Origin: Liolophura sinensis
Taxonomy: Eukaryota > Mollusca > Polyplacophora > Chitonida > Chitonidae
Length of the DNA stretch: 64,000 bases
Reading direction: 5' to 3'
NCBI RefSeq assembly: GCF_032854445.1
Contig: NC_088304.1
Coordinates: 10,613,704-10,677,703, forward strand
Part shown: piece after piece, positions 7,561 to 48,600 of the stretch
How positions within the stretch are numbered: the stretch's first letter is position 1
Layout of the letters: each line of letters starts with the position of its first letter
Notes under the pieces: model-generated
Database searches by the model: none
Seen by the model: only the letters and a program-made list of their open reading frames with translations
What the model was told of the DNA's origin: nothing
Translations under genes and position numbers: made by a program

Positions 7561-7591
<31 letters not shown>

Positions 7592-10500
7592 CGTCATCAT
7601 CATCATCATTATTTACTGTTATTTCAAGTAAGCTCTTTCTGTTTGCTTATTTGCCTGACTTTTTATGTATAAATTGCAACTCTTACAAGGAATGTGTCGA
7701 TACAATTTCGCTTCTTCGTTGTTTCCATAAGTACACTGTCTGGCCCACTTCTCAGCTCCTATGGCAAGTTTGTCATCCCAGTACTGGAAAATAGCATGCT
7801 TCATGTACAATTGTGCAATCATGTACAATAGCATGTACAATTGTGGCATATAAGTAGTAACAGCTTAGAAGTTTGTCATCCCAGTACTGGAAAATAGCAT
7901 GCTTTATGTACAATTGTGGCATATAAGTAGTAACAGCTTAGAAGTTTGTCATCCCAGTACTGGAAAATAGCATGCTCTATGTACAATTGTGGCATATAAA
8001 TAGTAACAGCTTAGAAGTTTGTCATTATAGTACTGGAAAATAGCATGCTTCATGTACAATTGTGGCATATAAATAGTAACGGCTTAGAAGTTTGTCATCC
8101 CAGTACTGGAAAATAGCATGCTTCATGTACAATTGTGTCATATAAATAGTAACGGCTTAGAAGTTTGTCATCCCAGTACTGGAAATAGCATGCTTTATGT
8201 ACAATTGTGGCATATAGATAGTAACAGCTTAGAAGTTTGTCATTCCAGTACTGGAAAATAGCATGCTCTATGTACAATTGTGGCATATAAATAGTAACAG
8301 CTGAGAAGTTTGTCATCCCAGTGCTGGAAAATAGCATGCTTCATGTAAAATTGTGGCATATAAATAGTAACAGCTTAGAAGTTTGTCATTCCAGTACTGG
8401 AAAATAGCATGCTTTATGTACAATTGTGGCGTATAAATAGTAACAGCTTAGAAGTTTGTCATCCCAGAACTGGAAAATAGCATGCTTCATGTACAATTGT
8501 GGCATGTAAATAGTAACAGCTTAGAAGTTTGTCATCCCAGTACTGGAAAATAGCATGCTTTATGTACAATTGTGGCAGATAAATAGTAACAGCTTAGAAG
8601 TTTGTCATCCCAGTGCTGGAAAATAGCATACTTCATGCTCAGTTGTGGCATGTAAGTAATAACAGCTTAGAAGTTTGTCATCCCAGTACTGGAAAATAGC
8701 ATGCTTTATGTACAAATGTGGCATATAAGTAGTAACAGCTTAGAAGTTTGTCATCCCAGTGCTGGAAAATAGCATACTTCATGCTCAGTTGTGGCATATA
8801 AATAGTAACAGCTTAGAAGTTTGTCATCCCAGTACTGGAAAATAGCATGCTTCATGTACAATTGTGGCATGTAAATAGTAACAGCTTAGAATTTTGTCAT
8901 CCCAGTACTGGAAAATAGCATGCTTCATGTACAATGGTGGCAGATAAATAGTAACAGCTTAGAAGTTTGTCATCCCAGTGCTGGAAAATAGCATACTTCA
9001 TGCTCAGTTGTGGCATGTAAGTAATAACAGCTTAGAAGTTTGTCATCCCAGTACTGGAAAATAGCATACTTCATGTACAATTGTGGCATGTAAATAGTAA
9101 CAGCTTAGACGTTTGTCATCCCAGTACTGGAAAATAGCATGCTTTATGTACAATTGTGGCATATATGTAGTAACAGCTTAGAAGTTTGTCATCCCAATAC
9201 TGGAAAATTGCATGCTTTATGTACAATTGTGGCATATAAGTATTAACAGCTTAGAAGTTTTGTCATCCCAGTACTGGAAAATAGCATGCTTTATGTACAA
9301 TTGTGGCATATAAGTAGTAACAGCTTAGAATTTTGTCATCCCAGTACTGGAAAATAGCATACTTCATGTTCAGTTGTGGCATATAAATAGTAACAGCTTA
9401 GAAGTTTGTCATCCCAGTACTGGAAAATAGCATGCTTCATGTACAATTGTGGCATGTAAATAGTAACAGCTTAGAAGTCTGTCATCCCAGTACTGGAAAA
9501 TAGCATGCTTTATGTACAATTGTGGCAGATAAATAGTAACAGCTTAGAAGTTTGTCATCCCAGTGCTGGAAAATAGCATACTTCATGCTCAGTTGTGGCA
9601 TGTAAGTAATAACAGCTTAGAAGTTTGCCATCCCAGTACTGGAAAATAGCATGCTTTATGTACAATTGTGGCATATAAGTAGTAACAGCTTAGAATTTTG
9701 TCATCCCAGTACTGGAAAATAGCATACTTCATGCTCAGTTGTGGCATATAAATAGTAACAGCTTAGAAGTTTGTCATCCCAGTACTGGAAAATAGCATGC
9801 TTCATGTACAATTGTGGCATGTAAATAGTAACAGCTTAGAAGTTTGTCATCCCAGTACTGGAAAATAGCATGCTTTATGTACAATTGTGGCAGATAAATA
9901 GTAACAGCTTAGAAGTTTGTCATCCCAGTACTGGAAAATAGCATACTTCATGCTCAGTTGTGGCATATAAGTAATAACAGCTTAGAAGTTTGTCATCCCA
10001 GTACTGGAAAATAGCATGCTTTATGTACAATTGTGGCATATAAATAGTAACAGCTTAGAAGTTTGTCATCCCAGTACTGGAAAATAGCATGCTTTATGTA
10101 CAATTGTGGCATATAAGTAGTAACAGCTTAGAAGTTTGTCATCCCAGTACTGGAAAATAGCATGCTTTATGTACAATTGTGGCAGATAAATAGTAACAGC
10201 TTAGAAGTTTGTCATCCCAGTGCTGGAAAATAGCATACTTCATGCTCAGTTGTGGCATATAAGTAATAACAGCTTAGAAGTTTGTCATCCCAGTACTGGA
10301 AAATAGCATGCTTTATGTACAATTGTGGCATATAAATAGTAAATGTTTAGAAGTTTGTCACCCCAGTACTGGAAAATAACATACTTCATGCTCAGTTGTG
10401 GCATATATGTAGTAACAGCTTAGAAGGTCAGACCAAGTGCACAGCAATGAGATATAAGAGTGAAATGGTGTTAGTACACATTCATTTTTCATAATCTTGG

Positions 10501-13500
10501 GAAACCTGTCAAAACGAAAATTAAACAATAATATAATGTAATGAGTGAAAGAAACTAATTGCGGATGGGTAAATCGATTTTAATATAGCCATGACATGAA
10601 GTGTTTGTTTTAAAGAACGTTGCAGATTTGTCCAAGGAAAAGGATTACTGTCAAGTGTAGTTGTGAAATCACCTCTTGTTTTAACAAATATTATCTATAT
10701 ATTTAAAGTAACATAAATACCAATTACTTGTATGTATGTGTTTTTTGTAAACATCATTACAAGAAGTTGCATCTTTTGGCTATTAATAATAACAAGAAAA
10801 TCAAAGGTTTTTCTTATTCCATGGCAACAATAATTAATATCCGGGTATTTCCAGTACGATGAGCAGAATACATAATTACAAAAGTATGCTGAGTTACGTC
10901 ATCAGAATATTAATAATCGAACAAAAACTACAACAAATGAAACCTATAAAAGGCCACTGGCTTTTAAATCGTGTCCTTTGGCCTAGAAGTAACTTCCACG
11001 GCTTACAACCGAGCTGCCACCCGATGATAGGAGTTTCATTCCTACCATTCTTCTAGTGTGCACAGAAGAAAGTTGTCTTGTTTATTCTTTTCCTTGTTAT
11101 ATACAAGCTAAGTTTCAAAATAAATTTATTTAAGAAAAAGAACTCTCAAACACAAGAATAGTGGTGGATGAAAAACTCAATCATTGTGTGACCGTGCGGT
11201 AAAAATAGATCTTTCCCAACGACTACACCAAATATTTATAATTTGAGTGGTGTTTTATGCAGTACTTAAGATTATTTCACTTATACGACAGCGGCCAGCA
11301 TTATGGTGGGAGGAAACTGCATGGGCAAAGCCCAGGAGAAACCCACGACAAGCGTCATTTGCAAAACAAAATTTTTCCACAGAGATCACGCGCAGATACT
11401 GTCAGACCCTTGGCTTATGAGGTCGCGCGCTCAAATCCAGCTTTTGCATATTGCTCCGTCTGCGGATTTGTCAGCTACGAAATGAAGGTTGGTGGTTTTC
11501 TTTCGATTTCCTCCATCCATGAATCTGAATGACTGCCACAAGGAGAGTAAAACTGGAGCAGCGATGCGAGTGAGGTAGTTAGTAAATAGTCACACTTAAC
11601 CTGTAAAACCCCGTCTTTTGCCAGTTTACCTCGCTTAGGGTTTTATTCTATCTGTTCACGTAAATGCTTAAAAGGTAGCACCTTGCAAAGACACCTAACA
11701 CCATGTCTTCAGCAGAGTGAAACTGAAAAATGCAGTAATGGTGATGACAAGGTATCACACATCAGTGATCCAGAATTTAAACAATGTTGAACGTTTATTG
11801 TTATAGAGTCATATCTTCATTAGAACATGCTCACCATTTTCAGCATAAAAGCAGCTGTCGGGTTTACTTTCGATCTGGCCTGATTGTGTGCATCTAGGAT
11901 ATACTTCTTGTCTTCTTCGCTAACCCCAGCGCTGCCAACAATGTAATTTGGGCTGTCAGTAGCACAATAGGTGCTATTCTCCACCGCTTGAAATTCCGGC
12001 GTACACGTGTCCGACACCTGGATTCCAAATGCAAAAATTACGACTCTAAAATAATGGCTATAATTTTATCTGACAGGTGTTTTACGCATTACTCGAACAT
12101 TTCAATTATACGACAGTGACAAGCGTTGCGATGGGAGGAAACCGGGCAGAGCCCGGACGAAGTCAATGTTTATTCACCATTAACACATTTCATGCAAAAG
12201 TTAATTCTTGGTTTCATTTATTTTATTTGTTTTACATCTTAGTCAAGAATATTTCACTTGTAGGACAGCATTGCAATCGCACTGACGAGAGGTTCATTGT
12301 GCTGCGCTACCATGCTAACCAGTCCGTCAGGTATTTTAATACATACGTCACCGTTAAAGGAAAACAAAACACAAAAACTGCACACTTCCTGGAAGAGAGA
12401 AGGAAATGTAATAGGTAATGAATATTACTTTTTCAATTTTTCTTTTAGAAGGAAGGCATTTTTACAGGATGGGCATTAGGGACCATCATCAGTATAATAC
12501 ATAAGTAAGTTTGAAACATTTATGTCGATATATTTTCTAAATGAGGTTGTGTTACATGTGTAATAAATTTAGTTTACTGTAATTTAATACTTTCTTCTAT
12601 GAAATGCTTTAAACTACAATTTTAACCATATTTATATTTTTATATATTGTTGTGGTTGTTTTTGTGCCGTATTCAGGAAAATGAATAAATAAGTAAACTG
12701 GAATACATACTGAAATATACCAGTTAACACAGTCACCAAATTACCTCCCGATTGTTCAGGTTATTTTAACTTCCTCTCTCAATGATTTTTAACGGTTCTT
12801 CCACATCTTGTACGGCAATCACTGTCAAAGACAAACATTCCCCTGAAGTAAAGTACGTGTAATCAAAATGGTAATTCTAAGCTGACGATCCAATCATGGT
12901 TATCTTACTTAATGAAATGTTATTTTACTAAACATATTCATGATTGGATTGTTGTTTAACTCTACACTCTAAAACATTTCACTTGAGCAAGCAAGCGTAT
13001 GAGTGGATAAAGATGACAGCATCTAAAGTTCCTGAAGGTAAACTTTCGCCTATGAAAATGAGGCGTGCAAAACCTTGACAGGTAAATTAACAAGAGGTTG
13101 TATTTTACCGGTTACGTGTGATCATTGGTCTTACTCTCTATGTTGTATGTCTTAAATTAATTTGGTTGCCTCTGAATGCAAGCCTGGACGCTGGACAAGA
13201 CAGATTATACGTTATTTACCATACCTCTTGCGGCGCATGCGCCACTCCCTACGTTCGCTTTATATCACTTCCACCACTGGCAAATTTTGTACAGGAATAC
13301 TGGACAAGACCGAGGCCACTCGGACCACAGTGGAAGTGATGTTAGAAAACACAAAAACTCTGTCTGAACTTCTTTTTCTACTGATACTTTATACACATAC
13401 ATTCTCTGTATTTAAAATATGTATAACAATTTTAACCAACACCTGAAATAATTTTATTACTGAATAATAAATTTAGTTAAGTTCAAGGACACCAGTGGTG

Positions 13501-13747
13501 AAGCTAAGACTAAACAAGCCTTCGTGCGTCGCACAGGCTCCAAAGTTCTGGCTTGACTAGAGATGGCAGTGATTTAAACGAGAGCGGCCAGAGAGCGGTA
13601 TATGCGCTGTGAGGAGTATGGTTTATTCTCAATACAATAATGCAAGTATGTCCAGTGTCAGAATATATGTATATGACGCTTCTCACATCGGCCATGAGAT
13701 AACACCGCCAGGGTCAACGCCATTAGCCAACTCCACTGCATCTTCAT
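2348..13747 (-). CDS. CAP/SCP-domain plus EGF-like secreted protein (gene span, 3' end outside window)
   Basis: This is a hand-assembled minus-strand gene with exons 13687-13747 (candidate signal peptide), 11835-12017, 7687-7783, 7248-7346, 5690-5784, 3825-3904 and 2348-2446. Reading phase matches at the junctions 11835/7783, 7687/7346, 5690/3904 and 3825/2446. The order of motifs is that of the CAP superfamily (CRISP/antigen-5/PR-1): DAHNQAR (first CAP histidine), WDDKLA..A..WA..C, PVGQN, then GCGYAKC, YYICNY and a Cys-rich hinge, followed by an EGF-like module. CAP proteins are secreted, disulfide-rich and often bind sterols or ions; the role of this one is unknown. Two gaps remain: the short exon with the usual GHYTQ-type second histidine was not found between 5784 and 7248, and the signal exon ends in phase 1 while 11835-12017 begins in phase 0, so an intermediate exon is probably missing there too. 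Confidence 0.85.
2706..2852 (+). repeat. SINE-A 3' core and tail
   Basis: The copy has caacctgcggatggttgtgg, the cataatgctg core and an (AAAT)n tail at 2825-2845. The head is absent. Confidence 0.8.
3664..3690. repeat. (AT)n microsatellite
   Basis: The sequence shows alternating at/ta repeats within an intron of the CAP-EGF gene. Confidence 0.8.
3825..3904 (-). CDS. Cys-rich hinge exon after the CAP domain
   Basis: The exon has an acceptor (caaacag) upstream of 3904 and donor gtaagt at 3819-3824; it is 26 codons with a split codon at each end. It encodes RPYVEGPSCKYCPDNC and then a VDNLC segment, the post-CAP hinge seen in CAP proteins of invertebrates. It joins in phase to the preceding CAP exon and to the EGF exon. 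Confidence 0.82.
4104..4361 (-). repeat. SINE-A, near full length
   Basis: The tail is at the left and the head ends at gccacggagacc (about 4350-4361). A few bases of the core are missing around 4130. Confidence 0.82.
4880..5075. repeat. MITE-like element, degraded copy (CTCAAAAAATTAA family)
   Basis: The right end, cagaatacattctagc ... caacagactttctgtg ... aactttttgagtg, matches the right arm of the palindromic element at 59922-60174. The left arm is decayed. Confidence 0.55.
5228..5290 (-). repeat. tRNA-like head of a SINE or tRNA pseudogene
   Basis: On the minus strand tggcctaatggttagaacg resembles a tRNA D-arm/A box, within a T-loop-less remnant. A functional tRNA could not be folded from it. 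Confidence 0.4.
5690..5784 (-). CDS. CAP domain exon with CRISP-type signature YYICNY
   Basis: The exon has acceptor with a long poly-T tract (tttttttttcag) upstream of 5784 and donor gtaaga at 5684-5689. It starts in phase 0 and ends in phase 2. It encodes MIGCGYAKC and YYICNYMP, the last two conserved blocks of CAP domains with their paired cysteines. The block that normally precedes it (GHYTQ) is absent from the exon and was not found in the upstream intron. Confidence 0.88.
6319..7140. repeat. Minisatellite, ~33-37-bp unit
   Basis: Roughly two dozen imperfect copies of aagcaagacataagacctta / catggtacagct run through the CAP-gene intron between exons 7248 and 5784. Read on the minus strand, units contain cttag, then ctgtgtcat, then gtaagg, that is acceptor-like and donor-like strings nine bases apart. 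Confidence 0.9.
7248..7346 (-). CDS. CAP domain exon (VGQN / AWDREKEF)
   Basis: The exon has acceptor ttttccag upstream of 7346 and donor gtgaga at 7242-7247; it enters with two bases and leaves in phase 1. It encodes YYYPVGQNAGF, then a Trp-rich helix ending AWDREKEFYKL, matching the family pattern (V/E)-G-Q-N ... W ... W-x-x-E. An open frame runs past the donor to a stop, but it is not CAP-like. Confidence 0.85.
7549..7613. repeat. Trinucleotide (CGT/CAT)n microsatellite
   Basis: Repeated tcg/tca triplets lie in the CAP-gene intron. A plus-strand serine-run frame here is an artefact. Confidence 0.9.
7687..7783 (-). CDS. CAP domain exon (YWDDKLA / WARQC)
   Basis: The exon has acceptor attttccag at 7784-7792 and donor gtaaga at 7681-7686; it is 32 codons plus one base. 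It encodes YWDDKLAIGAEKWARQC followed by a polar stretch, the second helix and first structural Cys of CAP domains. Its first 17-18 bases, together with the acceptor, are repeated in every unit of the array that abuts it at 7766-10427, so the true acceptor is the outermost copy of a long row of look-alikes. Confidence 0.88.
7766..10427. repeat. 73-bp minisatellite (~36 copies) containing a splice acceptor and exon start
   Basis: The period was checked at 7868, 7941, 8014 and 8087 and is exactly 73 bp. On the minus strand each unit reads tattttccag, then tactgggatgacaaactt, then ctaagctgttac. The first two parts are the acceptor and opening codons of CAP exon 7687-7783. A variant unit with catacttcatgctcagttg recurs at 8627, 8773 and 8992, and again at 9577, 9723 and 9942. 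The same 146/219-bp spacing repeated 950 bp away shows a higher-order duplication of about 13 units. Confidence 0.95.
10428..11240. other. Intronic sequence without recognised features
   Basis: AT-rich unique-looking DNA between the 73-bp array and a SINE fragment, inside the first recognised CAP intron. Nothing further was seen. Confidence 0.4.
11240..11350 (-). repeat. SINE-A fragment
   Basis: An antisense core (ggtgttttatgcagtactta, gcggccagcattatggtggg) ends near acccacgac. Confidence 0.8.
11555..11795. repeat. Copy of palindromic MITE-like family (gtaaactgac / ggttttattct)
   Basis: Shares cagtttacctcgcttagggt, then ttattctatctgttcacgtaa and tcagtgatccagaattta with the copies at 25911-26480, 41430-41592 and 53766-54900. 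It ends 40 bases from the donor of CAP exon 11835-12017. Confidence 0.65.
11835..12017 (-). CDS. CAP domain exon, N-terminal part (DAHNQAR motif)
   Basis: The exon has an acceptor at 12018-12020 and a donor gtgagc at 11829-11834; it is 61 codons, phase 0 to 0. It encodes a linker with two Cys, then VSEEDKKYILDAHNQAR and VNPTAAFMLKM, the first helix of the CAP domain with the conserved His. It joins in phase to YWDDKLA in the next exon, which recreates the family motif M-x-W-D-x-x-L-A. The intron that follows contains the 73-bp array. Confidence 0.88.
12066..12165 (-). repeat. SINE-A fragment
   Basis: Antisense core fragment: ggtgttttacgcattactcg, then gatgggaggaaaccgggcag. Confidence 0.7.
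12480..13680. other. Presumed first intron of the CAP-EGF gene; no exon recognised
   Basis: Contains a partial MITE-like copy near 13030-13145 (ttaccggttacgtgtgatca). A missing coding exon of the CAP-EGF gene may lie here, since the phases of the flanking exons disagree, but none could be recognised. Confidence 0.4.
13687..13747 (-). CDS. Candidate signal-peptide exon of the CAP-EGF gene
   Basis: On the minus strand an ATG at 13747 opens MKMQWSWLMALTLAVLSHGR, a short charged start, a hydrophobic core and a small/polar end typical of a cleavable signal peptide. It is followed by a consensus-like donor (gtgaga, 13681-13686) in phase 1. Position and strand suit the first coding exon of the CAP-EGF gene. 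The phase does not fit the next recognised exon directly, so the link is inferred and needs an unseen exon. Confidence 0.5.
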
Positions 13748-13826
13748 TCTTTGTATTGATGTAAGCAACTAAAAAACAGAACATAGATCTTTCCTATGTT
13801 GTAAACGTCAGACATATAGGAATAAC

Positions 13827-14036
13827 TTTATTTATTTGATTTGTTTGGTGTTCTACGCCATACTCCAGAATATTTCACTTAAACGATGGCAGCCAGTATT
13901 ATGGTGAGAAGAAAACAGAGGGAACTCGGGGAAAACCACGACCATCCACAGGTAGCTGGCAGGAATTGCTTTTAGTGTGAGGCTACTGAGTCTCTGTTCA
14001 GCGCTAGCACGCTAACTACTTGGCCATGGAGGCATC
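13827..14036 (-). repeat. SINE-A, near full length, diverged
   Basis: The tail is at the left, followed by core ttctacgccatactccagaa and a degraded head ending ggccatggaggc. Confidence 0.78.
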
Positions 14037-14229
14037 TTACATCTTATAATACACAGTGTCTTTTTGTGGGCTGAGGGGCTGCCATTTATCCAATGCGTAT
14101 ACTTTAATCGCCCCATCAGATGAGTCTTAACCAGCACTGAGGCAGTAGGTTCAAATCCAGTTGTCACTATAGTATAAGTAAAATAAAAAGCGTTGCTATT
14201 AACACAAAATTTCAATTTGCGATAGCTGT

Positions 14230-16980
14230 TTCTTAACTTGCCTCCTCCTTGTTCTACTTCTTTTCAGCTCCTATAAGGCAACAAAAATCGTTAAACTCAG
14301 ATTTAAAATTCTGATTTAAACCAACCGACGTCATATAAGTGGAAATTTCGATATTAAACTTTGGGATTAAACCATAATCAGATTAATACAAAATTTATAA
14401 TTCCGGTAAAAAAAACCGGTGCTAAGTCATCATCTAATGAAGATGAGAAGTGAACTTCAGCTTGGCTCAAATCCCAGTATCCCTCTATTTTCAAATAAAG
14501 ACTATGTTCCACAAAACCCACTACAGGTATGTACGGGGCGCTTTAAACACTGACCGCCTTTATTTTCCCATGTTGAAATTGTCAAAACACATACATGTCA
14601 CGTTTCCATCAATTCTATGCTTTTGTTTATAGTCGCGTATAGGTTGTCCCAAAGCCAACGAAGCTAGACCTTAGTTTGGATAGAGGAAGTTTACGGAGAA
14701 CTCGACGTTTACGAAATCATTCAAACGGTTTCTGTAATATTTCAAGGATATTTTGTGAGCATATACGGTATAGAAATATTAAAGTATACTAAAGTATCAA
14801 GACAAGAAATGAATTTATAACGTGGAACACCGAAAAGAGAATTTTATATATCATTTCAAAAGTAACATTTTCTAAGCGTTTTGTGAGGTGTTCATTTTCC
14901 AACATTTTAGAAAGTTTTAAATTTCTAATATTTTAGAAAGTTTTAATCTAACATACCTCCCTTCTTCTATAGCACTGTTAAATGTTAGATTCAACATTAT
15001 AAAAGTTACATATAATACATTTCAGTTTTTTTAACAGAATAACCGTCTTGGCAAAATGCGCATACATACTTACACATATAGGAGAGCACTCATCCGTGAT
15101 TTCTTGGAAGGAAAACAGGACTGCTTGTGATACTGGGGAATGGGTTACATAGCTTATATATAGTGTTAGCCCATTGTCCCAAAGCTAAATTAGGCTCTAC
15201 AGTTCATGTACATTATGATACATTTGATACATTATGACGTTTTGTCTGTAGCATCTAAATGTCATATTACACCATTTGCAAGATACGACGTGTTAATTAA
15301 CCAATTCGTGGATAATATCTTGTCAGAATAAAGAGGAACGCTTGTGGCAGAAATAAATGTGCAAAAACAAGAAACATATGGTCTACGTATGTTACTTTAC
15401 AAAATATGACTCCGGTTGTGTCGAGTGAGTTTCTTGGACCTCGGGCAAAAATATGTCTAAAAGTTAACTCAGATGACCCAGACGATGGTCCAGGCAATAA
15501 GTTCTACAAATATTTCGGCGTTAAACTAGCTACGAATATGCCCAAGCATTTAGTGTGACAGTGGGCAAAAGGGGGCATATGTAAAATAGGCTTACTGAAT
15601 TGGTCCTTAATCAACATGCTGAAATAAACCCTAGTGAAAAAGAGCCCTGATGTAGATGTCATTAACAGAGCTACATGTAAATCAGCTCTGAGAATAAAGG
15701 ACCCAAAAACCTTACGTGGTATACCTGTAGATACCCACATAAGTGAAACATTCTTGCATACAATAAAAGACTGACAGCAAAGAGCATAAAACCAGAAAAG
15801 CGACGACATCGTGACAATTGGCTAAATATGCACATGTATGTTTGGTGCATTCCAGTAAATAAACACATAGCAAAACAAATAAATAAGTATCTGTCTCAAT
15901 TACTAAATATACAGGGATAATAATTGTACATTCGACTCTTGGTGATGCTATGCGTCGAAACAGACTTTCGCATACCAGCCGTCAACCAATAAGAACGTTC
16001 CAGATCATTAATCTCAAGGCCAATTCCCAAAACGAGGCCTACACAAACCACAAAAGAACTAAGAAAGTAAATAAAGTACGAAAAAAGGACGGAATCATGC
16101 AGGTAGAAGCAGTCAACAGTTTTCATTGATTTTGGAAAAGAGCGAGGTATGTTCTAGGCCACTGTGTGAAATCAGTATTAAAATCGTGTACCATGCTAGA
16201 ATATGAGTTGTCGATAACAAAATATGTATCTCAGTTGCGCTTTGATTGCAGCTGTTCATATATCCAACATGGCGAACTAATTCAATGTGATGAATATACA
16301 GACCCTAGCCCCGAGCTTAGTCGAATTAGACACAAGCATGAAGCAGAGCGCCAAAGATTCTGCACGCAGGTGAATACATTTGACTGAGTATCGTTTCCAT
16401 AGTAGTTTTTGAATCGCTAAACATTACATGAAACAGTAATTTGAAAGTATCTCGTTTTAATATCTTATTTATAATATCTATGTGAAATTCACATTTCACA
16501 TGTTTGTTACATACTCCTTTTCAAACTGGTGCTTCATATTTTTTTGGAAATGGATCTTTCGTGGTTTCATGGTAGGCAAATGTCGGACGCATTCATGTGA
16601 GGCAACTTTTTCGTTATCCATGCCATATTTAAAGTGATATTTGGATGCAGTGTGTTTTGTGTTTCCGATATTAATCGACACTGACATATTTTTTCATTTA
16701 TCAAGACACGATCTGTGATGAAGTTTATATAGCTATGTCACAGACATTTGAAATAAGGTAATTAAACGCCACCATACAAAATATATGTTACCTAATGTAT
16801 GTGCCCCGAAGTTGTGCAATATTGTGTGATATTTTTATTTTTTCTTTCCCAATTTATCTAAACTGCTTTTCACTACATCCAAACCTGAGATGACAGGTTT
16901 GAATCCAGTCATTATATGAAACAGGGAAAACAACAGCATTTCAGTATATTGTTTTTTTTATGTAATATAATTATAGACGT
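14230..16980. other. Gene-poor stretch, nothing recognised
   Basis: No exon-like block or known repeat was recognised apart from a short direct repeat (ttttagaaagttttaa) near 14903-14945. Open frames are short and lack motifs. Confidence 0.4.
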
Positions 16981-16982
16981 AT

Positions 16983-17042
16983 ATTTATTTTTATTTATTT
17001 GATTGGTGTTTTACGCCGTAATATTTCACGTATACGACGGTT
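16983..17042 (-). repeat. SINE-A 3'-end fragment
   Basis: An (ATTT)n tail and gattggtgttttacgccgta are followed by a truncated core. Confidence 0.75.
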
Positions 17043-17970
17043 ATTCCTATACAATTTTTCGTCTTCGATAGGGATAACCTGTGTTGATAATCTTTGTAGT
17101 AAGTTTGACTAAACGCTTTTCTGCAGAATGCTTTAAAGTTTATCTAAGGTCGATAACAAGCAATTTTCTCTGCAATTTGAAAAGAAAGATAATATGAGAA
17201 TGAAATAAGCTTCGGTAAACAGGCTATACAAGTTTGAATGCATCGTAGCTGAAATATACCGTAATGATATGCGTCTTAAATGCTTTAAAACAACAATCAT
17301 TCATTTATATTGTTTAAAAATTTAGAACCTTCCGATAGGATGTATCACACCAGTTAATACCACATAGGGTTCTGCATGAAAAAAACTAGATGTTCTTCAT
17401 TTTAGGTTCTTTTTCTTATTCAGATAAGCAATATTTTAAACCAGACACGGGTTCATATTATAGGTATGCCTATTCTGCACATGGTGTATGGTGTCTGTGT
17501 ATGATGTACAAACACTTCCTGGACTCTCAGGTCTAGCTCTGACACATCTACAGTAAGAATATATGAACTAGACTGAAGTTTCTGGCAGAATTAGCCAACA
17601 CGCCGTTGCTGGTGTTGCTGTTAAGTAATATGTTGGACATAGCGTTGTCCAAACCTGGCTTATCATTTTGTTCTTTATATTTATAGTTTCTTTTTTATTT
17701 CAGAGAAATAACACCATCGTCCAAAAGGAATAATGCTGACCCACTGGGAACAACGTTCAGTGTTTATCACATTCTGTCTAGCCTTTCTCATCTGTAAAGG
17801 AAGCGTGAAATAAAACACAAAGTGCATGAAAACTCCTCTGTGGTTCTGTTTCAAAGCTGAATGTTTCACGTCGCAGGCTTGGTGTATCCTTGACCATGTG
17901 TAGTGCAAGACTTCCTGTAGCTTCTACAACCGCTCCCACTCACACTTACATTGCAACAATGCACAAACAT

Positions 17971-18075
17971 TTTTCTCGTAATTACGAGATTTTTTTCTCG
18001 ATATTTCCAGAAAAAATATGGTAATTACGAGAAAATATTCTCCCAAATAGGAACAAAAATCTAATAACTACGAGA
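17971..18075. repeat. Foldback element centred on tctcgtaattacgaga
   Basis: A perfect 16-base palindrome tctcgtaattacgaga at about 17975-17990 is followed by gtaattacgagaaaat and a degenerate actacgagaa. These make nested hairpins typical of a small foldback repeat. Confidence 0.65.
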
Positions 18076-29300: not shown

Positions 29301-32300
29301 AAGAGATTTTGCTTCGCGCTTTTGTTGTCACTATAATTGTATGATTATCTCGGGGCTCGTGATTACTAAGTTGGGCCCCTAGTTAACCGGCCAATCATTT
29401 GGCCGCTGACATCGCGATTTAGGCGAAACCACGTACCAAGTTGTAATCGGATTGACTAGGATTTTTTCCTGTTTCCTCTGTCTTTTAAAAAAAAGAAATA
29501 CTCTCGCCTGATCTCCTCAGGAGTTTTTCTCTTTTCCGTCGCTTAAAAAAAACTCCCACCGATCTCTTTTTCTGGGAGTTTTTCTTCTTGAGTACAGCGT
29601 AAAACACCAATCAAATATAAATAAATCGATCCATGCCCCCGTTCCTTTATGTTTGAACTATTATTTATAGCTGCATGGATCACGGCGTTTGACACCCATT
29701 TCGGATGCATTGCCAACAAAGATCACACGGAAGCCCAGGCCATAATTGACGCCAATGCTCTGATATTCCGTCTCTCCGTGGACATGAAGTTTTCCGTGCC
29801 TTGGTACAAGATCTTCCCCACCCCAAAGCGACGACGGATCTACGCGGCCGAGGACTACATATTAAGGTAAGTCAAGACGTCTATTCAAGCGTAAGTCGCC
29901 ATCATGTTGATGAAACATGATCGACACGTTACAGAAAGTTTTGAAATAGCGATGTCTATTCAGAGCAGAAGTACTGTATGTTGAAAAATAGTCTCTTCTT
30001 TCAGTCTTGTCCAAAAACAGTCTCTCCTCTTTCAGCATCGTCCAAAAACAGTCTCTGTTAGCATCGTCCAAAACAGTCTCTCCTCTTTCAGTATTATGCA
30101 AAAACAGTCTCTCCTCTGTTAGCATCGTCCAAAAACAGTCTATCCTCTATCTGCATTGTCTAGTAACAGTTTCTCGTCTTTCAGTATTGTCCAAAAACAC
30201 GTGGATCAAACTGTCGAGAAGATCAAAGTATTACAAGACAAAGGCGAATTATTGGACGGTCAATACAGCTTCTTGACGTACTTGTTGTCAAGGGAACAAC
30301 TGACGTATACAGACATCGTCATCCTCACGCTCTCACTTCCTTTTGATGGCGTCAGCACGGTACACAGTTATTTTATATTAAAGCATTCTACACAAAACAA
30401 AAGAGTTTTAATCTGAAGCGATTCTGTTTTCATGTATAAACAATGTGTAAAGTACCTTCATTTGATCAAGGGTATGAAAACTCTAGTGTTTTTTCTTTGT
30501 GAGAATAAATGATCGACTCTTCTCATGTGTGTAAGGTTGAATGACGTATCACATCGTATAAGAAGAGTTTTTTTTCTAATTCTGCACCCATCAGTTTTCA
30601 TATGAAAGCTAGGACATGTTCTCGTCTCACAGCTATTCCGGTTTTCTGTCACGTGATCTAAAAATGTCATTTCCTGTTTTCATTCTGACCATACAACTGG
30701 TGACGTCACATGTCCATATGCCTTGGCGTTTCACTTTGTTACTAAAATAATCCCATCATAACATGTCTATATGTTTTTAAGGTAAAAATAACAATGTATA
30801 TTTATATCACTAATTTTAATTTCGTGGGGTTATGTGGGTCTAAATTTCTGTGGTATGACTGTTTATTTTCAGAACGCAAGAATGCTTTACTTCAACATGT
30901 ACTGCATTGCCAAGAATCCAGACGTCCAGAAAAAACTGTACAATGAAATCGAGCAACATCTTCCAGGGGACGAACCTTTGACACCCGAGAAGCTCAGCAA
31001 ATTATCCTACCTCAAGGCTTGTGTGAAGGAAACTTTTAGGTATTGGTATGATTATGCAACTATCTTTGATTCAGAAGTGTTTGGTTGATGATTGACGAAA
31101 AATTTCAGATCAGTGTGACTGCAACTGAAAGTTAGACTGGAAATTGCCTGCCAAATGTTATAGCAACAACGATTTTTTAGCGATTCAAATATGACACAAA
31201 TAAGTATCCGAAGGTAGAAAAACAAGCTAAAAGTGGACCTCTCTTGGCGTTGCCATGTAGTGAACCAATAATGTGGAAATACCTGGGGCCTAAGCTGTGC
31301 GGACTAGTGTTCATTCCCACCTTTACTCATTTATTGCAAGAGAGCAATGGTCAAGTAAGACTGGAACCTCATTATAAATTTGGGCAGGTGAGAAGAGAGA
31401 TTTGGGTCTGTCGTTTTCGTCAACGGTTTGGTTCTTCGCCGTTGCAAAGCTTGTATTATATTCACCATAACGGTTTCTTCTCACCATAATGCTGGCCCTC
31501 ATCGTATAAGTGAAATATTCTTGAGTGCAGCGTAAAACACAAATCAAATAAATAAATAAATCAATAAATCAATAAATATTGATGTTAATGTAAGTTTCAG
31601 CTGGTTCAGATGTAGCTTTAAGTCAGGAGATTTGTCCGATACCTCTGGAGATACGGTGGTTTCATCTGCTATTCGGAAGGTTAATGTTAGCAATAAAGCA
31701 ATTTAAGAAACAAGTAAAAAACATTAAGTTTTTGTGTTCATTCTACACTTACGGGGCCTCCGTGGCCTACTTATTAGCGTTTTACCGTAGCACCATGACC
31801 CAGGAGCCTTTCACCGATGTGGTCGTCATGCCTTCAAGCCTTGCTCCTGGTGGCTTCCTATCCGGTTGTGTGTGGGAAGGTCTGTCAGCGGATGGTCGTG
31901 GTTTCCTCCAGGGCACTGCTCAGTTTCCCCCACTATACTCCTGGCCGCCGTATAAGTATAACTATTCGTGAGTACGACGTAAAACTCCAGTCAAAGAAAT
32001 AAAATAGTACTCTGTAATTATGAATTTGTTCTTGCAGGTTTTTTCCGATTGGGCTAGAGATTTCCCGGATTTTGAAGAAAGACATGGTTATCGGGGGCTA
32101 TCAGCTACCTGCCGGAGTAAGTGGCAGAATCTTAATTCCAAATAATAATTGTAAATAATAAACATAATGTATATGTGTGGTGAAAGACTATTGATCACAT
32201 CCCACCGTGTGTCGGAAGGTCTGTCCGCAACTTGTCGATTTTCGCGGGTTTCCCCCGGACTCTCCCCAATTTCCTCCCACCATAATGCTGGTCGCCGTGG

Positions 32301-37937: not shown

Positions 37938-38130
37938 CCGAGGGACTTCCGTGGCTCAGCTTGTTTGCGCGCTAGCGCAGAGGAATGACCCTGGAGCCTC
38001 TCACCAATGCGGTCGCTGTGAGTTCAAGTCCAGATCATGCTGGCTTCCTCTCCGGCCGTACGTGGGGAGGTCTCCAAGCAACCTGCGGACGGTCATGGGT
38101 TTCCTCCCACCATAATGCTGGTTACAATGT
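37938..38130 (+). repeat. SINE-A head and core, 3' truncated
   Basis: The head ttccgtggctcagcttgttt includes the B-box-like gtgagttcaagtcc. The core stops after cataatgctggtt. Confidence 0.82.
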
Positions 38131-39412
38131 CTTTTAGCCTATCAAGGCAAAAGACATGGTAAGATTGCAATTATCAGTGAATATATTGAACGGATATAAT
38201 TATATCGAATTCAGACATACCATTATGTTATTTATCTGAGTTGGTGCTGTATTTTCGTGTTTTTGCTTTTTTTTTTTATTGAACAAAAATTAACGTTAAT
38301 GCTTGGTGTTTACTTTAAATCGGTTGTATTCATTATTCATCACAAATCAGTTGTATTCAGGATACAACTTCTGAGATTAGAGACATTTTATTCACTGTTG
38401 CATTGTCAGAGTTGAGACGCAGTGTTCAGTGTGTTTTCCAGTCATGGACAGATTTATTCAGTACATAGTCGAAGTAAACATGTCTTATTCAGTGTATGTT
38501 CCAAGAACGGACATTATGTTGTCGTTTTTCAAAGGAATGATGTCATATCCGGTATATTCAGGACCGAGGTTCCAGCTTTAGCCAAATTCCATTCACAGCC
38601 TCTGGGAATCCAAACAGTTGCAGCTTGAGTTCCGCCTGAAAGATAATGAAGGAAGTACATGAATTTCGGAGACCTTTAACCGAAATGGCTCATTTCAAAA
38701 TTTCATAAAACTGCATGATAAAAGATAAATGAAGGCTTTCTGGCATTGTTTGTTACGTGTACTTGTTTCAGTGTTTCTTCTAAAGTCTATAAAAGTCAGA
38801 TGAAATTTTAAAATTATTTTACCAGTTGGCTCATACATGTACGCTGGCGAAAATTTGCACAACACTGGTATTTCTATTGGCTTGTATTATAATGTTGAAC
38901 GATAACATGCAAGTACGTGTCGCGTGGGAAGTAAAAAGAGCATGTAGAATCGGTCTATCACCATAAAAGACCTTATCTTACTCGGGGATTTGGAACCAAT
39001 TTGAATATCGTGCACATATATAAAATAAACACAAGAAGGGCGCTGTTGCAGAGCTTTCAAACTAAATTCCAAATAGAATAATTTCTTTCACACTGAATTG
39101 TGAAAATGCCTGTATAATCGTTTCCAGGCACATGCCGGCACAGGCAATCTGTTACTGCGCCTTATGATGTTACGTCATGTCAAAACTTTTCCCATTACAA
39201 TGAAATTGTGTAAACTCGTCATTCCTCTGTATCGCAGAAGTATGCGAACCAGCGATGCCCCGATTAGGTAAAAATACCTGTCGGCCAATTTCGTCATCGA
39301 GAGTGACTCCCCTTGCTCTCTATATGGACACTGCACCTGAGATTGATTGCACAAAGAACCACAAAGCTTTGATTTAAGTCAAAATTATAAGACAAATGAA
39401 TCGCAATCTGAA

Positions 39413-39695
39413 CTACACCTGAGCTATCAACCTTGCGTCATTATGAAGTTTTAAATTTTCACTGAAGTCCACACCCACTTTGTGGAATCGATCTCTAGTG
39501 AGCAAAGCCTTTGAAAATATCGCGTGACCAACCTCGGTTTCAGCACTCCTCACAAATCGGTACCTCTGTAGAATAGACACGACCGCCATCTTGGCTTTCA
39601 AAAGAGCCAGTCTCATACCGACACAGTTCCTGGGGCCATGGCCAAAGGGCAGGTAGGCATAGGGGTGTCTTTTGGCCTTCTCCTCGGCAGAGAAT
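39413..39695 (-). CDS. CYP3-clan P450 exon 13 (heme loop and C-terminus)
   Basis: Completes Arg438, then [20 protein letters not shown] and the Cys462 loop, and ends at TGA 39413. The acceptor tatattcag is the last of a row of copies (19-bp array). Confidence 0.93.
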
Positions 39696-42600
39696 CTGAA
39701 TATATGGAGAGAAGCCGAAAATAAGAGGAAGAGCTGAACCTGAATATAAGGGGTGAATCTGAATGTAGGGGGTGAATCTGAATATAAGGAGTGAATGTGA
39801 ATATAAGGAGTGAATCTGAATATAAGGAGTGAATCTGAATATAAGGGGTCACTGCGCATAAAAGAAAATAAGAAAATTCATTGAATTTCCACTCCATGTT
39901 AGATATGCAGATCTTACGTATCGTGAAGCTTGTTTTCGAACTAGATTTGGGAGACGGCAAAATATTTGAAGCCGTTCATACACGGAACACAACGACCAGT
40001 GTTAATCATAGAATTTGTTAAATATGCCAAAATTATGCATGGATCAGGTTGGTGTGTACATTCTTTGTGTGATTTTACAAACAATACTTTACAAATCTTG
40101 ATTTTTTAATCAAGATCGAACATTACTTGGAGCAGTTATTGCACGGAAACTTAAGCAGAGCAGACGGACAGATGGACAAATGGAGGAAAAGCCAGACAGA
40201 CAAACAGTCCGACGGACAGATGTACATTAACGTCCCTCTTTTCGCTGAAGCCTGATCACACCGTTCACACATGAACACATGAAAACCGACTGCGTTTGTA
40301 TGCCATGGAAAAATAACAAGATCGTAACTGTACATTATTTCATCCAAAAGCAGCATGCATGGTCGTCGCAGCTGCTCGGGAACCTAAAACCAAAGTCTGC
40401 TCTACCCTGTTCTGTCTGCATATCTACCAGGGCATAATCCCGGCTCTGTCTGTTTCCCCCTAAACCAGTACGTACCTCTGAGGATTGAATTTTTCTGGGT
40501 CAGACCAGTACTTGGGGTTGTTGTGAATATAATTTACAGGAATCTGGATAGAGAGGCCTTTGGGAATCAGATGCCCTCCGATGACAATGTCGTCCTTAGT
40601 GTCACGAGCCAGTCTGGAGAATAAGAATATAATATTAGTTATAGGAAAAATTTTAATCTAGGACTTATTTATTTTCATCATGGGTGTTTGACGCTCTGCT
40701 CAAGGATTTTTAAAATCACATTATGGTGGCCAGGTTTTAAGAGATAAATAAATCTACGATAAAAGTTCCACGTCATTGGAATGGCTATTTCCTGTATTTC
40801 CTACAGCTAAGCTGGGGAGAATGAAACAGATCTCAGATCTCCAGCGTGTGCCCATAACAAACACCCAACATAAGCAAACGAGTGTTATAAATTGAAGATG
40901 TCTATTCCCATAATGCAAAGCGTAATTCAACATATGGACCTGAAATTTATTTCCATCCATGAAGATTCGATGGAAGGACTTAATTAAATTTCTTCAAATA
41001 AGCATCGCAAATCAACCCAGCCACGTCCTTACCACTTCTAGGGAAAATCGTTACCAGACAAAATCTGACAACAAACGTTGAAGGAGAAATTTAAAACCGG
41101 TAGGATCATTCTAATATAATTTTAGTATAAAATACAATACATTTCCTCAGATAAGATTTTCCATAAAACATACATGATGTGCATACAGATATAGGGCATA
41201 GTCTGCTTTTAGGCAGGTTAAAAATTCCCCACCTGTTAATCAAAACCCTCGAAAATTCCACGTGTGGTAACCTGAAACTTGAAACCTTGTCTACATGACC
41301 ATGTTCAAACATGACAGTTTCAAATATAAATGTCCTTTTATCAAAACCTTAAATTTTCATCCAAATACATGACTATACATAAATTCTTTAAAAGGTCGCC
41401 ATTTGCCTGTCTGATTAGCATTAAATCTCTATAATGACGATGACACAGAACGAAAAACCAGAGCAGCGACGACAATGTGCGGGCTGGCAAACAGTCACGT
41501 AACCGGTGAAATATGGCCTCTTGTCAGATACTCAGTTAGGGTTTTATTCTGACTGTTCATGTAAAAACATAAATACTAGCAACTTTGACATACCTCTGTC
41601 CAGCTGGGTAAATTCGGAGCGCTTCACTAATACACATGTCTAGATAAGGTAGACCCATTACATTTTCATAGTTAGGCTTATTCTGCAAGAAAGAGTACAA
41701 ATATGCCTTGTATATTTCATGCTAAGGTAAGAAACATAAAAATGATTATTTATATAGAAAAAATACAATGAGAGAGCCTTGCATGCTATGCAGCAGGTTC
41801 AGAGTAAAACTAGAAATATCTTATTTATTTATTTATTTATTTGATTGGCGTTTTACGCCGTACTCAAGAGTATTTCACTTATACGACGGCGGCCAGCATT
41901 ATAGTGGGAGGAAACCGGGCTGAGCTCGGGGAAAACCCACGTCCATCCGCAGGTGGCTGGCAGACCTTCCCACATACGGCTGGAGAGGAAGCCAGCATGA
42001 GCTGGACTTGAACTTACAGAAATTTAGAAACGTCTTGTGATATTGCAGCGTCATAAAAATAGAAATGTCATGCCATATAGCCGGGTCATAAAAAAGAAGA
42101 AATAACCTATCAGTTTGCAAGCCATAGAAAAAAAAAATAGAAATGTCTTCTCATATAGTAGGGTAATAAAAAATCTGTAAATGTCGTGATATTACAGGGT
42201 CAAAGGAAAAAAAACTACAAATGTCCTGTGATATTGCAAGGTCATAGGAAAACTAGACACGTCTTGTAATATTGCAGTGTAATAGGAAAAGTAGAAATAT
42301 CTTTACGTATTATTCAAAGCTGAAAGAAAACAATAGAAAGCAAAAGTTGTCTCAAAGAAGAAAATATCTTGATTTGTTGCAGCCACATGTAAAAAATAGA
42401 AACTAGAAATATACTGTCAAATTATACGCTCTGATAAAAACTAGAAACCTTCCCTACCTTCCCAACTTTGGTGTCAATCTCCTCAATAAGGGTCTCCTGG
42501 CATTCGGGATTCATCGCCAAACAGTAAGACAGCATACTTAACGTACCCGCTGTTGTTGCATATCCACCCAACATGAATACAAAACACTGAGCCTTGATTT

Positions 42601-45600
42601 CTGTCTCGGTAAGACCTGCGAATATATTCATCGTTTCTGTTTGAAATCAATGATCTTAAACTTTAAATCACCTGGGTCCGCTTGTTTAAAACAGTATTAA
42701 GACTTAATATCGGATTTAACTTTAAGCCAGGTTTGTTTTTTGTCCCAAAAATAATAGTGTAACAGTATATTAAATATGAACAAAATCAGTTTTTGCTCCA
42801 TTTGGTCTCTGTGCAACTGAATTGGTTCCTCAGTTTTGTGAATACATAATACGACTTAATATCGGTATTAGCTAATACGCTTTGAGCCACCGGACCCAGA
42901 CATACGAGAAATTATATATCACTATATGTGCTGGAACTTCCCATGCGTACTCTCTCATATCGAGTTTCTCCAGAATCTGTGGACTGCATTTCATGCAGCA
43001 AATCAATCATAAGATCAGTCATAAAATCAATCATACATGGTATACCTTGAATAAGACCATGAAAAACGTGACATGCCTGACTTTAACTAGCTCCCAAGCC
43101 TCCGTGGCTCAGTTGGTTAGCGCGCTAGCGCAGCGTAATGACCTAAAAGTCTCTCACCAATGCGGTTGCTGTGAGTTCAAGTCCAGCTCATGCTGGCTTC
43201 CTCTCCGGTCGTACGTGGAAAGGTCTGACAGCAACCTGCGGATGGTCGTGGGTTTCCCACGGGTTCTGCCCGGTTTCCTCCCACCATAATGCTGGCCGCT
43301 GTCGTATAAGTGAAATATCCTTGAGTACGGCGTAAAACATCAATCAAATAAATAAATAAATAAATAAATAATTACCTCGCCTTTGATTCTGGACATCAGT
43401 TTTCAGGGCATTTCGATCAACGTCCACATCGGCACTGTCAAGGTCATCCACACGTGCGTCAATCATCAACTGAAGAAGGTCCCGCCTTGTCTGTTACCAT
43501 GGAAATACAATACATGTACATCTAGAGATTTTGGGGGGGGGGCATATAATTTAATAATATTTTCCACGGCACAAGTTTACACTGAATTTGTCCATAATGT
43601 GCATGCTATACAATCGGGTTAATGAGAACTTTACTTTGGTGGGAGAAGCTCCCGCTACGTCCCCAAGTATCACTGATTCAAATCCCAACAAAGTCACCTG
43701 TTCACAAAAAATCCGACTCATTTGTGGCTGCTTTCTCTGTAACTCTGCCCTGATGGAATAAGATATAACACCGCTGCCCAACGATTCTGGGCCAACCGGT
43801 CAAATTTTATGCCAGATCATGTGACTCGAATATGAAAACAAGAAGGTAATCTCTGATGTCACGATGCTTTAAGAGGGCTCCGTACATTGGAAAACAGGAA
43901 TAGCGATGTAAATATTACGGTTGGTTGTGGGAGAGGGCATTTTGATCTTTTTGTCTTAGGCGGACAAAACTTCTAGCTCTATTGTCATATTTCACGATCT
44001 GGTTTACTGTATTTCTTCAACATTTTCGCATTTTTGCAAGATATTTACACAAGCATATTCTAATGGCAGATTTCTGTGCAAACTGATACAATTACGCCTT
44101 TTGCGAAGCCCTGAAATTGGCCAACCCAAACCAGTATAGTTTTGTATTTAAAATAAAATTTTAAGGGAACATACTTTGCACTTTCATATGCCAAAAGGTT
44201 GAGGGAATAGAATAAATCAAAAATGGATTTGTGCAGTCGCCTCCAGTTTTTCCAAAATTGCTGGTATGGTGACATCTACTAAGGCCTAGGTCGACTTATT
44301 GCTGTTTACCAGGCCCCGGGATCAAGAAGCAATCTTGGGTTTAAGTCAAAATTTCAAATTATTTTAAAATTGTTGTTTCTTATATTACAAGGTCAAATTT
44401 TATTTGTTTGAAAACATAAATTCTGGGTAAGCTCTTGTACAACAAATTTCAGCTAAAATAACACAAAGGAACATACGAAGTTTTGATATAAGTCTAAGAT
44501 CGCTTCGTGGTCCCGGGGACTGGAATCTAAATGCTACTTACTGTGCCGTGTTGTTTTCGTTGGTCAATATTATTCTTGACATCTCGCGCAATCACGTCCA
44601 CTGTTTCCTGCCAGGCCTTAGGGAAGGAGCTGATTTTGAAGAGTTTCATGATTTTAGTGATGAATGGAAATATCACTGAAACAACAACAACAAGGAGCTA
44701 ACTGTAGGCCCGTTGTCTGACATGACTGACTGATTGATCGCTTGATTGAATAGTGTTCAACTCCGTGCTCAAGAATTTTTCACTTTATTATGGCGCTAAG
44801 GTTTATGGGCGAATGAAACTGGCGATCAGCGATGCTTTCTCATGTAGTACTGACCGGCCCGGATAGCACAGATGGTAGAGCGTTCGCTTCGGGGACCGGT
44901 AGATCCAGGATCAATCCTTGATCGAGTCACACCTAAGACTTTAAAAGAGGAAGTTGTAACTTCCTCGCTTGGCGTTCAGCATGAATGGGATAATGCAACG
45001 ACTGGTTGACCCGTATCAGTATAATGGCTTACTTGCCTTCGGTAAGTCGTCTCAGTGAAGCAGCACTAAAATAAAAGAGCGGTGGAAATCCGTCCTGCAA
45101 CAAGGAGGCATATTACACGTACATGCACCCTAATGATTCCTTCGTCGTCAAATGACTGAAAAATTATTCAGTACGACGTTAAACCCCAAGCACTCACTCA
45201 CTCACGTAGTACTGCATGGCCTAGTGGTTTGCGCTTTAGAACCGCCTACTGATCTAGCAGCCTCTTACAAATAAGATCGATGTGAGCTCATGCCGGCTTC
45301 GTTTTCTGTTATGCATTGGAAGGTCTGACAGCAACCTTTGGATGGTTGTGGGTTTCCTCTGCTCGGTTCCCTCCTACCATAACGCTGGCCGCCGTCGTAT
45401 AAGTGAAATATTCTTGAGTACTGCGCAAAACTTCAATCAAATAAATAAATAAATGGGTAAATAAATCATGTAGTCTTATACGAAGTTCGATAGAGACAAC
45501 TTGCAGAAAAGTTTGCAGTATATAACCATTCTCTTTCATCTATGCTATACTTACGGAAACAAGACAATTGAAAATTCTTGAGTATAGCCTTACACAACGA

Positions 45601-48600
45601 TCTCATATGTAAATATCCCCAGCTCTTCTCGGTTTCCTCCCATCATAACACTGACCGCTGTCATATAAGTGAAATATTCTTGAGTGCAGCATTAAACAGC
45701 GATCAAATAAATAAATAAATCACAAGTAAATAAAAAAATAACTTCAATATCTTACTGTTCACTAGAACCATCATGGAGATTTTTGGAGAGAGCAGTTTTT
45801 TCAACAGCTGTGCGAATGAGTCGTCCGGGTTTTTCAAACTATTGGAGTCTATTCCGAAGGCTGTTCCGGATATGGCGTCCAGAGTATAACCTTTAAATAA
45901 TCTATACACAGGGACAAAATAAGAGTTATAGTCAAGGGTACGAAATTCATATCAAGTCAAAGTTCGTTAAAAAGACTCAGGTCATATCATCGAACACTCG
46001 CATATTGAGCACCGATAAAGCTGATTACCGTCACAAAAATGAAACACTCATGAACCAGGCGTTCAATACCAATCATATAAAAAGTAAGAAATTTATGGAA
46101 TATATAAAATTTAGCCACGAGTAACACAGTCATGTTCTATCAAAGTTAGTGAAAAATAAGAAACTCATTCCATACGAAAATTAGTCAAGACTAAGAAACC
46201 CGTGTCATCTCAAAATTAGTTAGGAGTAAGAAACTCATGTCAAATGAAAGTCAGTCTAGAGTAAGAAACTCGTGTCATATGAAAGTCAGTCCCATACGAG
46301 CCCAGTGGCATAGCCACGCGTAATACTGTATCAAAGAGATATCACGCTTGCTTACTCTTGGGTATCTATGCTCTTCCCGTCTTTGCTCTTTTCCGCTATC
46401 ACGTCTTGTAAGTTATCCAAGACAGACTGAATTATTGGTACCATCTGGAGAAAACACAGAGAAGGGGGAAATTATTCTCATTCCCAGCCTGAAACCAGGC
46501 TGTCTACCCATTTGTTACATTATTAATTGAGAACATATCGTTACATGCACTTGATACGAAGTGATTTGGTCAGGCATTAGAGCAGAGACAAAGTGACCTG
46601 GACAAACTTCCAGCGTTATTGTAGAGACAAACTGACAAGGACAAACTTCCAGTGTTACAGTAGGAACAAACTGACGGGGACAAACTTCAACGTTACAGTA
46701 TGTCAAGCTGACAAGGACAACTTCCAGTGTCACGTTAGAGACAAAGTGACTGGGACAAAGTTTCAGCTTTACAGCAGCGACAAAGTGACCTGGACAAACT
46801 TCTATGGACAAAGTAATGTAAGAAAAATTTCACGTTACAGTACTGTCTCCAAAGCCAAAGGCTAGAGACAAAGTTGCCCGGACAAAGGTCTGTTCTAATA
46901 ACGTCTAAACCAGGACAAACCATTTGCGATACAGTATAGTCTCACCTCACGGAGTCTCCCAGAGCTAAAGGCTGGAGACAAAGTGGCACGGACAAACTTC
47001 CAGTCGTCATCTTGTAAAATGGTCAGCTGCTTGCTCTCCACTTCGGTCAGCGATAATGTATCAGTTATCTGCAAATAATTTTTTTTTTACTTACGATACA
47101 GGCACAAGCAGATTTCAAAGATACAGAAAACGAAAAAAAAAGGTTTTTTTCCATACGGTGACTAATAGAAATTGTTTATTTAGCCTGATTCTAAAATCTA
47201 TTTAACCGTGAAAAATGTTTGAGATGTGTTTTAAACAATTGGGCAAAAAAATTCAGATCCCAGGATTGCTAATCGAACGTGTTTAGTCCAAACCTGTGTA
47301 GGTCCCTACCCGTTCTATTCGCACATGCTCGTCGTAGTACACGTGATCGTACTGAAAATGAGGCTGGCCGTCTGCTCTCTTTGGGAATAGAAGATGTCGA
47401 GAAGTGCCTCTGCATTTGGCAATTGCGGTGCTGGTATGTATTGATTGCTTTTATCTTTTCTTGTAAAATTGTTTGTGTCTGCTGCACAATTTATGTTGTG
47501 TTGTTCATCGTTACATACGTGCGTAGTTGTTGTGGCGAATAGAGATGTGGTTGTTGTGTTGTAGTGGAAGGTTAGGTAGATCTGAGATCTGTTTAAGTCT
47601 TCCGAGCTTAGCTTTCAGAGATACCAAAAACCCTTGACAAGCACTTTACAGTCCCAGCAAAATTCTTATACATTTTCATTAGCTTCAAATTTAACATCAC
47701 TACAGCCACATGCAGCGTCAGTTGAGCAGTCAGTGTATAAATCAGCGTGTAAATGGATGATGACTAACATGTTTATGCAATATGATGCTAACTCCATCTC
47801 CTAAGTACTCACGCACTGCTTGAATTTGACATCTTAACATGAGTGAGTGAATCGAAGAAACGCGATTACACATTATGGTGAGTAATGGCGTGAATGTAAA
47901 TAATTCCACCGCAGACCAGGCAAAGCATCTCCCTTTTTTACATCTGTTTAGATGATGCCATGTTAAAAAAATGGAAGCGGGTAATGCGTGGAGGTTTGCA
48001 GTTGTCTTGTGCCTAGATGCATCAAACATGTTTAGCTTACCATGTGTTTTGGGGGTAAACATGTTTAGGAATCCCAGACAAAAATATTTTGTGCCCTCCC
48101 CACGTATAATGCCTTCTGGTTTCAACCTAAGCACCTTTTCTCATTACATGTTTAGCCAACAATGTGCTTAAAAAACTGAAAGCAAGATTGTGTGGAGCTT
48201 TGTGTTCAGACACTACACACATATCTTAGAGTGTGTTGGAAAGTTGAATATTGAACTTCCCGGCGTGTGAGGCCCTGATAACAATAAACATGCGGCTCGA
48301 ATGGCCATTTCAGCAGTCTAACCCACTGCAGACCTGATGTCTTCCACCCATATGGTGCGCATAGCTGTACGTCACAGGTGGCTAAGTTCTACGGTACCCC
48401 GGATACTGGTGTTTCCTCAACAAATAAAATGGACCGCAGAGTGAATATTCTGTAAAATTCCAATGTGAGGTTCAGCAACAATGAAATAAATAAATAAATA
48501 AATCAAACTCAAACTCACTGTTCTGTTCACGAAGTTAGGGAACTTCTTCACTAGAATTTCTTTCACCATATCTGGATCGCCCACCAGGAGTTGAGGCGTT

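Follow-up and report, generated by a model that had tools for sequence, protein, structure and literature searches.

We analysed a window of 64,000 nucleotides, the whole stretch under study (G000:C10:10613704-10677703 of one 609-Mb assembly of the chiton Liolophura sinensis), in which several tandem repeat arrays lie directly against exons. The window holds a CAP gene on the minus strand (~7.2-12.1 kb), a CYP44 gene on the plus strand (20.1-36.1 kb) and a CYP3-like P450 gene on the minus strand (38.6-52.8 kb). In each gene an intronic array carries within its repeat unit the sequence of the adjacent splice acceptor; a fourth array, beside exon 5 of the CYP3-like gene, is what remains of an older 76-bp donor-side array also seen, with like unit limits, in two paralogues, three CYP3 genes in all; this array is newly described here. 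Tandem repeats that span exon/intron boundaries are known from amphioxus as 'mirages' (PMC3087553; PMC3902484). Arrays and exons are listed below by window position, a slash marking a splice junction.

7784..10426, minus strand: acceptor-side array of about 35 units of 73 bp (Tandem Repeats Finder, TRF: 7832-10426, 73 bp x 35.5), from TRF, boundary scoring, splice matrix and alignment.
29984..30199, plus strand: acceptor-side 31-bp array (x 7.2) located 5' of a CYP44 exon and overlapping the exon edge, from the same analyses.
39696..39846, minus strand: acceptor-side 19-bp array (x 5.9; TRF 39735-39846) with degraded sequence reaching the exon, again from these analyses.
46577..46945, minus strand: what is left of a 76-bp donor-side array, its present 39/75-bp copies having lost the donor (TRF 46577-46802, either 5.9 copies of 39 bp or 2.8 of 75 bp), from TRF, copy alignment, splice matrix and paralogue loci.
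7687..7783, minus strand: CAP exon; the 73-bp unit is templated on its acceptor TATTTTCCAG/TACTGGGA, which together with the donor CATTCCTT/GTAAGAG places the exon, its frame joining in the CAP match.
30185..30359, plus strand: CYP44 exon; the 31-bp unit contains its acceptor and its first 15 nt, from splice junctions of protein P0121 and unit-boundary alignment.
39533..39695, minus strand: CYP3-like exon (haem region); the 19-bp unit contains its acceptor TATATTCAG/ATTC, from protein-derived junctions and unit-boundary alignment.
46946..47068, minus strand: CYP3-like exon 5 (120-123 nt), with donor GAG/GTGAGA like its paralogues, from protein matches, splice sites and paralogue comparison.
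11835..12065, minus strand: CAP exon upstream of 7687..7783 (3' end ...AAFMLKM), 5' limit provisional; an open frame with an HNQAR motif, matching PF00188 once joined to the next two exons.
7228..7346, minus strand: CAP exon following 7687..7783, with acceptor TTTTCCAG/CG, 3' limit provisional; matched by NCBI protein P0004.
46659..46801, minus strand: array stretch included as a coding exon by NCBI model P0001, not in paralogue P0002.

Tandem arrays were called with TRF and their units scored against 46 exon boundaries in both orientations. Against the adjacent acceptor, the 73-, 31- and 19-bp units score 48, 35 and 25, respectively; at boundaries beyond 2 kb their maxima fall to 12, 13 and 10, and the reverse complement gives 12, 12 and 10 at most. 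The CAP unit is identical to the true boundary at 50 of 50 nucleotides (32 intronic and 18 exonic), and the motif TTCCAG recurs 35 times in the array at spacings of 72-74 bp. Its units share a mean identity of 91.6-93.7% at spacings of 1-12 units, and column counts display no clear pattern at the acceptor. The CYP44 unit takes in the acceptor and the first 15 exon nucleotides, and the CYP3-like 19-bp unit has TATATTCAG/ATTC in common with the exon acceptor. Units spanning the adjacent exon/intron boundary, the defining trait of a mirage, thus occur in these three arrays, as well as at exon 5 of two neighbouring CYP3 paralogues, P0002 and P0004; both sides of the intron are represented, with acceptors in CAP, CYP44 and CYP3 and donors in CYP3 exon 5.

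The initial annotation of this DNA had described four arrays, in three unrelated genes, that all contain the adjacent exon edge with its splice site. Unit-boundary identity bears out such exon-edge copies, with their decoy splice sites, for the 73-, 31- and 19-bp arrays; the 39-bp array holds exon interior and intron without a splice site. As for the genes, the CAP gene does stand apart (PF00188), but the other two are both cytochromes P450 (CYP44 and CYP3-like), and the 19- and 39-bp arrays share one gene. The remaining minisatellites had been said to lack exon homology, and the other 16 of the 20 window arrays indeed reach at most 12 when scored at boundaries, exon interiors lying outside this test. 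The PF00188 match was obtained from the three-exon join of the CAP gene; neither the CAP exons, scanned in stop-to-stop frames, nor a join of two of them matched Pfam. The concatenated P450 exons of the window find their best protein matches in Liolophura sinensis, own-species exon pieces being 100% identical; amphioxus, considered as the source in view of the mirage literature, was rejected on these matches. Within intron 3 the first CYP3 exon occurs again at 49713-49790 in degraded form, 77% identical and with a stop.

Copies of the boundary bring copies of the splice signal, which we scored with a weight matrix built from 41 local acceptors. All three true acceptors score under the authentic-acceptor median of 10.0, and several decoys match the true site in score. 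In CYP44 the true acceptor scores 7.9, with decoys at 30034 and 30090 reaching 9.5 and 8.0 and the remaining AGs lower; in CYP3 the true acceptor scores 5.1 and the AGs of the 19-bp array range from 3.4 to 7.1; in CAP the 35 copies have a median acceptor score of 5.2, equal to the true site. The periods of 73, 31, 19 and 76 bp are all 1 modulo 3, so that use of a neighbouring decoy would shift the reading frame. Splicing presumably passes over the decoys and uses the exon-side copy, which in CYP44 is the acceptor taken by model P0121.

The fourth array differs from the others in its present state. Its 39-bp copies consist of exon-interior sequence plus an intron tail, without spanning the boundary; scored against the 46 boundaries they give no boundary-level match (maximum 12, or 14 on the reverse complement), and a splice-matrix scan of the region detects only the authentic donor at a score of at least 4. 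Its origin becomes apparent in the neighbouring paralogue P0004, where exon 5 is followed by an array of 76 bp x 7.9 (L002:9136-9739, or G000:C10:10602839-10603442) whose unit comprises the last 62 exon nucleotides, the donor GTAAGA and about 15 intron nucleotides. A more degraded array at exon 5 of P0002 keeps the same unit limits, and these limits are alike in P0001 (the window gene), P0002 and P0004: about 62 exon nucleotides back and 15-17 intron nucleotides forward. The arrays are in different stages of decay. In P0004 a full-score donor survives in copies 1-2 and a weaker one in copy 3; copies 4-6 read ATAAGA, with AT for GT, and copy 7 has no donor. In P0002 three copies retain a full-score donor. 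The P0004 copies also depart from their own exon in common: all seven full copies lack one base that it contains, and six of the seven read AATGTG against its AAGTTTG. Exon 5 of P0004 is one base longer than its array copies and than exon 5 of P0002. These common departures fit homogenisation.

The simplest reading is that a single array existed in the common ancestor of P0001, P0002 and P0004; if so, it survived two gene duplications. The three arrays could instead have arisen independently from a hotspot, a possibility suggested by the strong differences among the unit copies of the three genes and by a further locus, L033, where one short copy repeats the exon end (score 22, exceeding 200 shuffles). 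We regard independent origins as improbable, since the unit limits are alike in all three genes and since a tree of 64 proteins, six of them L. sinensis CYP3, unites the three in a single clade (100/99) whose sister group is P0006, P0014 and P0118. The three proteins are 56-59% identical to each other. An exon-5 peptide search returned 13 loci, and strong downstream unit copies are found in the three clade genes only (scores 59, 38 and 32). At nine of the ten other loci, all ten covered for 486 to 522 nt past the exon, no unit copy is present, the best scores of 7-11 lying under the best of 200 shuffles; by peptide three of these ten correspond to P0006, P0014 and P0118, and seven lie outside the tree. 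The exception, L033 (G000:C10:12966554-12967153), is a degraded CYP3 exon-5 copy with a stop, its one tandem copy being partial. Separately, L034 carries a 39/78-bp array (1-167 and 248-421) in the intron after a CYP3-type exon 5, with no downstream exon-end copy there.

The initial annotation judged chance placement of the arrays unlikely and offered, as one possible explanation, a seeding of arrays at splice sites. On this view, splice-site sequences would prime template switching or slippage, so that arrays are preferentially seeded at exon edges. Pyrimidine-rich acceptor tracts could slip, which would count in favour of this mechanism. Within 56,440 bases of intron, TRF called 16 arrays (period at least 15), a density near one per 3.5 kb. 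Four of the 16 are boundary-homologous, one of them (P0004) outside the window and kin to the window's fourth array; inside the window the figure is three of ten. When whole arrays were repositioned by chance within the spans of the genes, their contact with or closeness to boundaries proved unexceptional (P 0.29-0.87), in a test dominated by the 2.6-kb array. We then compared boundaries with windows in the same introns for the three window genes plus two neighbouring CYP3 genes, counting copies within 1.5 kb at a score of at least 18. Nearby copies were found at 7 of 94 boundaries as against 412 of 1903 control windows; windows within one array are non-independent, so this test compares coverage, not events. 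Two further boundaries exceed the threshold, P0002 132796 (score 21) and P0004 145411 (score 19); the window's own CYP3 exon-5 donor falls below it.

A second sample comprised 20 P450 exons chosen regardless of arrays: a family search gave 99 matches, and going down the table we took the first 20 no longer than 330 bp; five of the 20 contain stops, and many represent one exon of one subfamily. With acceptors and donors placed by splice matrix and open frame (39 of 40 placed), no boundary of 39 had a copy at a score of at least 16, against 51 of 418 flank windows, the 51 deriving from 6 of the 20 loci; at a score of 14 the counts were 1/39 and 61/418. When the ends of the profile matches served as edges, 0/40 had a copy at a score of at least 16 and 2/40 at 14 (flank windows, 32/252 at 16), but such ends are too coarse, the true donor of L037 lying 49 bp inside the match end. 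In wider zones, at a score of at least 18, copies were seen in 2 of 40 edge zones (L044 and L045) and 8 of 50 flank zones. Neither of these two is a boundary case: the 35-bp arrays (L044:712-1000 and L045:1-305) stop about 104 and 88 bp short of the P450 acceptor, which they do not include. In L037, an 18-bp tandem pair was likewise rejected: it sits about 18 bp into the intron, with no donor in it.

Arrays are thus common near these exons, without enrichment at exon edges in the samples tested. Boundaries being poorer in nearby copies than intron windows in both comparisons, we consider preferential seeding at splice sites very unlikely, and the enrichment that the initial annotation had made its test is absent from these samples. 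The samples are small, come in part from a single gene family and do not span the genome. Its alternative, that only arrays preserving a splice site survive near exons, conflicts with the 39-bp array, whose copies have lost theirs.

The chiton arrays are very probably mirages, intronic minisatellites begun as tandem duplications across an exon/intron boundary. On this reading splice sites need not attract them in any special way: minisatellites abound in these introns, and boundary arrays arise because some seed segments happen to cross a boundary. The initial event would be a tandem duplication spanning the boundary, after which the exon-adjacent copy would retain its role in splicing. The remaining copies would be intronic, multiplied and homogenised by slippage or unequal exchange, and would carry decoy splice sites. 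Several points weigh against this interpretation. The four boundary-homologous arrays exceed the 0.94 expected under random unit seeding (Poisson P 0.016, post hoc and uncorrected for window choice), so that a mild excess is possible, which would speak for seeding at splice sites. The controls are local or restricted to P450 exons, with the sample limits given above, and constraint on exons may conceal duplications that reach into them.

Could the arrays be used, their decoys providing regulated alternative splicing or coding exons? Two NCBI predictions contain array sequence. In P0001, 48 residues come from the array, the normal donor being skipped for a later GTTTGT donor, and model P0004 runs on into its first array copy. 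These models may indicate either that arrays mislead annotation or that array copies are sometimes exonised. Along with the high-scoring decoys, the P0001 exon is what speaks for a function, which nevertheless seems quite improbable to us: adjacent decoys are out of frame, the in-frame CYP44 decoy at 30090 runs into a stop, paralogue P0002 has no extra exon, and the model exons are predictions. NCBI model P0004 also starts with the window CAP exons (7228-7783) fused to the P450, without the upstream CAP exon at 11835-12065.

Interpreted as mirages, the chiton arrays have several implications. With mirages present in a mollusc, they look more generally like a side effect of introns rich in minisatellites. 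Gene prediction is confused by them, as the two models holding array sequence illustrate, and the three-gene CYP3 array enables the age and decay of such an array to be traced gene by gene. A more ambitious view would make boundary-spanning arrays long-lived heritable gene features across distant animals, with the chiton CYP3 array, kept through two duplications, feeding decoy donors and occasional new exons, and mirages in general a standing source of new splicing; we hold this to be unlikely.

In the mollusc literature searched, from which subscription papers were mostly absent, we found no report of boundary-spanning arrays. A polymorphic 27-bp intronic minisatellite is described in abalone, with no exon boundary mentioned in the accessible part of the paper (PMC6905558), and another mollusc study deals, in its accessible part, with simple repeats only (PMC3862624). 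The closest systems lie elsewhere. In intron gain of the type proposed by Rogers, as cited in PMC3087553, sequence with splice signals is tandemly duplicated, as in the chiton arrays, which NCBI models take as exon; unlike that process, the chiton copies lie in an existing intron. As for a new intron position, a predicted extra exon occurs in P0001 only, and paralogue P0002 has none. The amphioxus mirages, as reported, occur at 5' and 3' boundaries and carry cryptic splice signals; their length is unstable, splicing proceeds normally, and they have been proposed as an origin of new introns (PMC3087553; PMC3902484). Their units measure 10-72 bp in Adh3 and 150-160 bp in globin genes, and the phenomenon was suggested to be possibly general in cephalochordates (PMC3087553). 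The chiton arrays share the anatomy of those in Adh3, the globins BflGb6 and BflGb9, troponin C and PGBD5. They differ in occurring in a mollusc, in that one array is common to three diverged paralogues, and in being known from the sequence of one assembly. Proposed initially, as a class, to be a new source of splicing variation, the chiton arrays belong to a known kind, that of the amphioxus mirages (PMC3087553).
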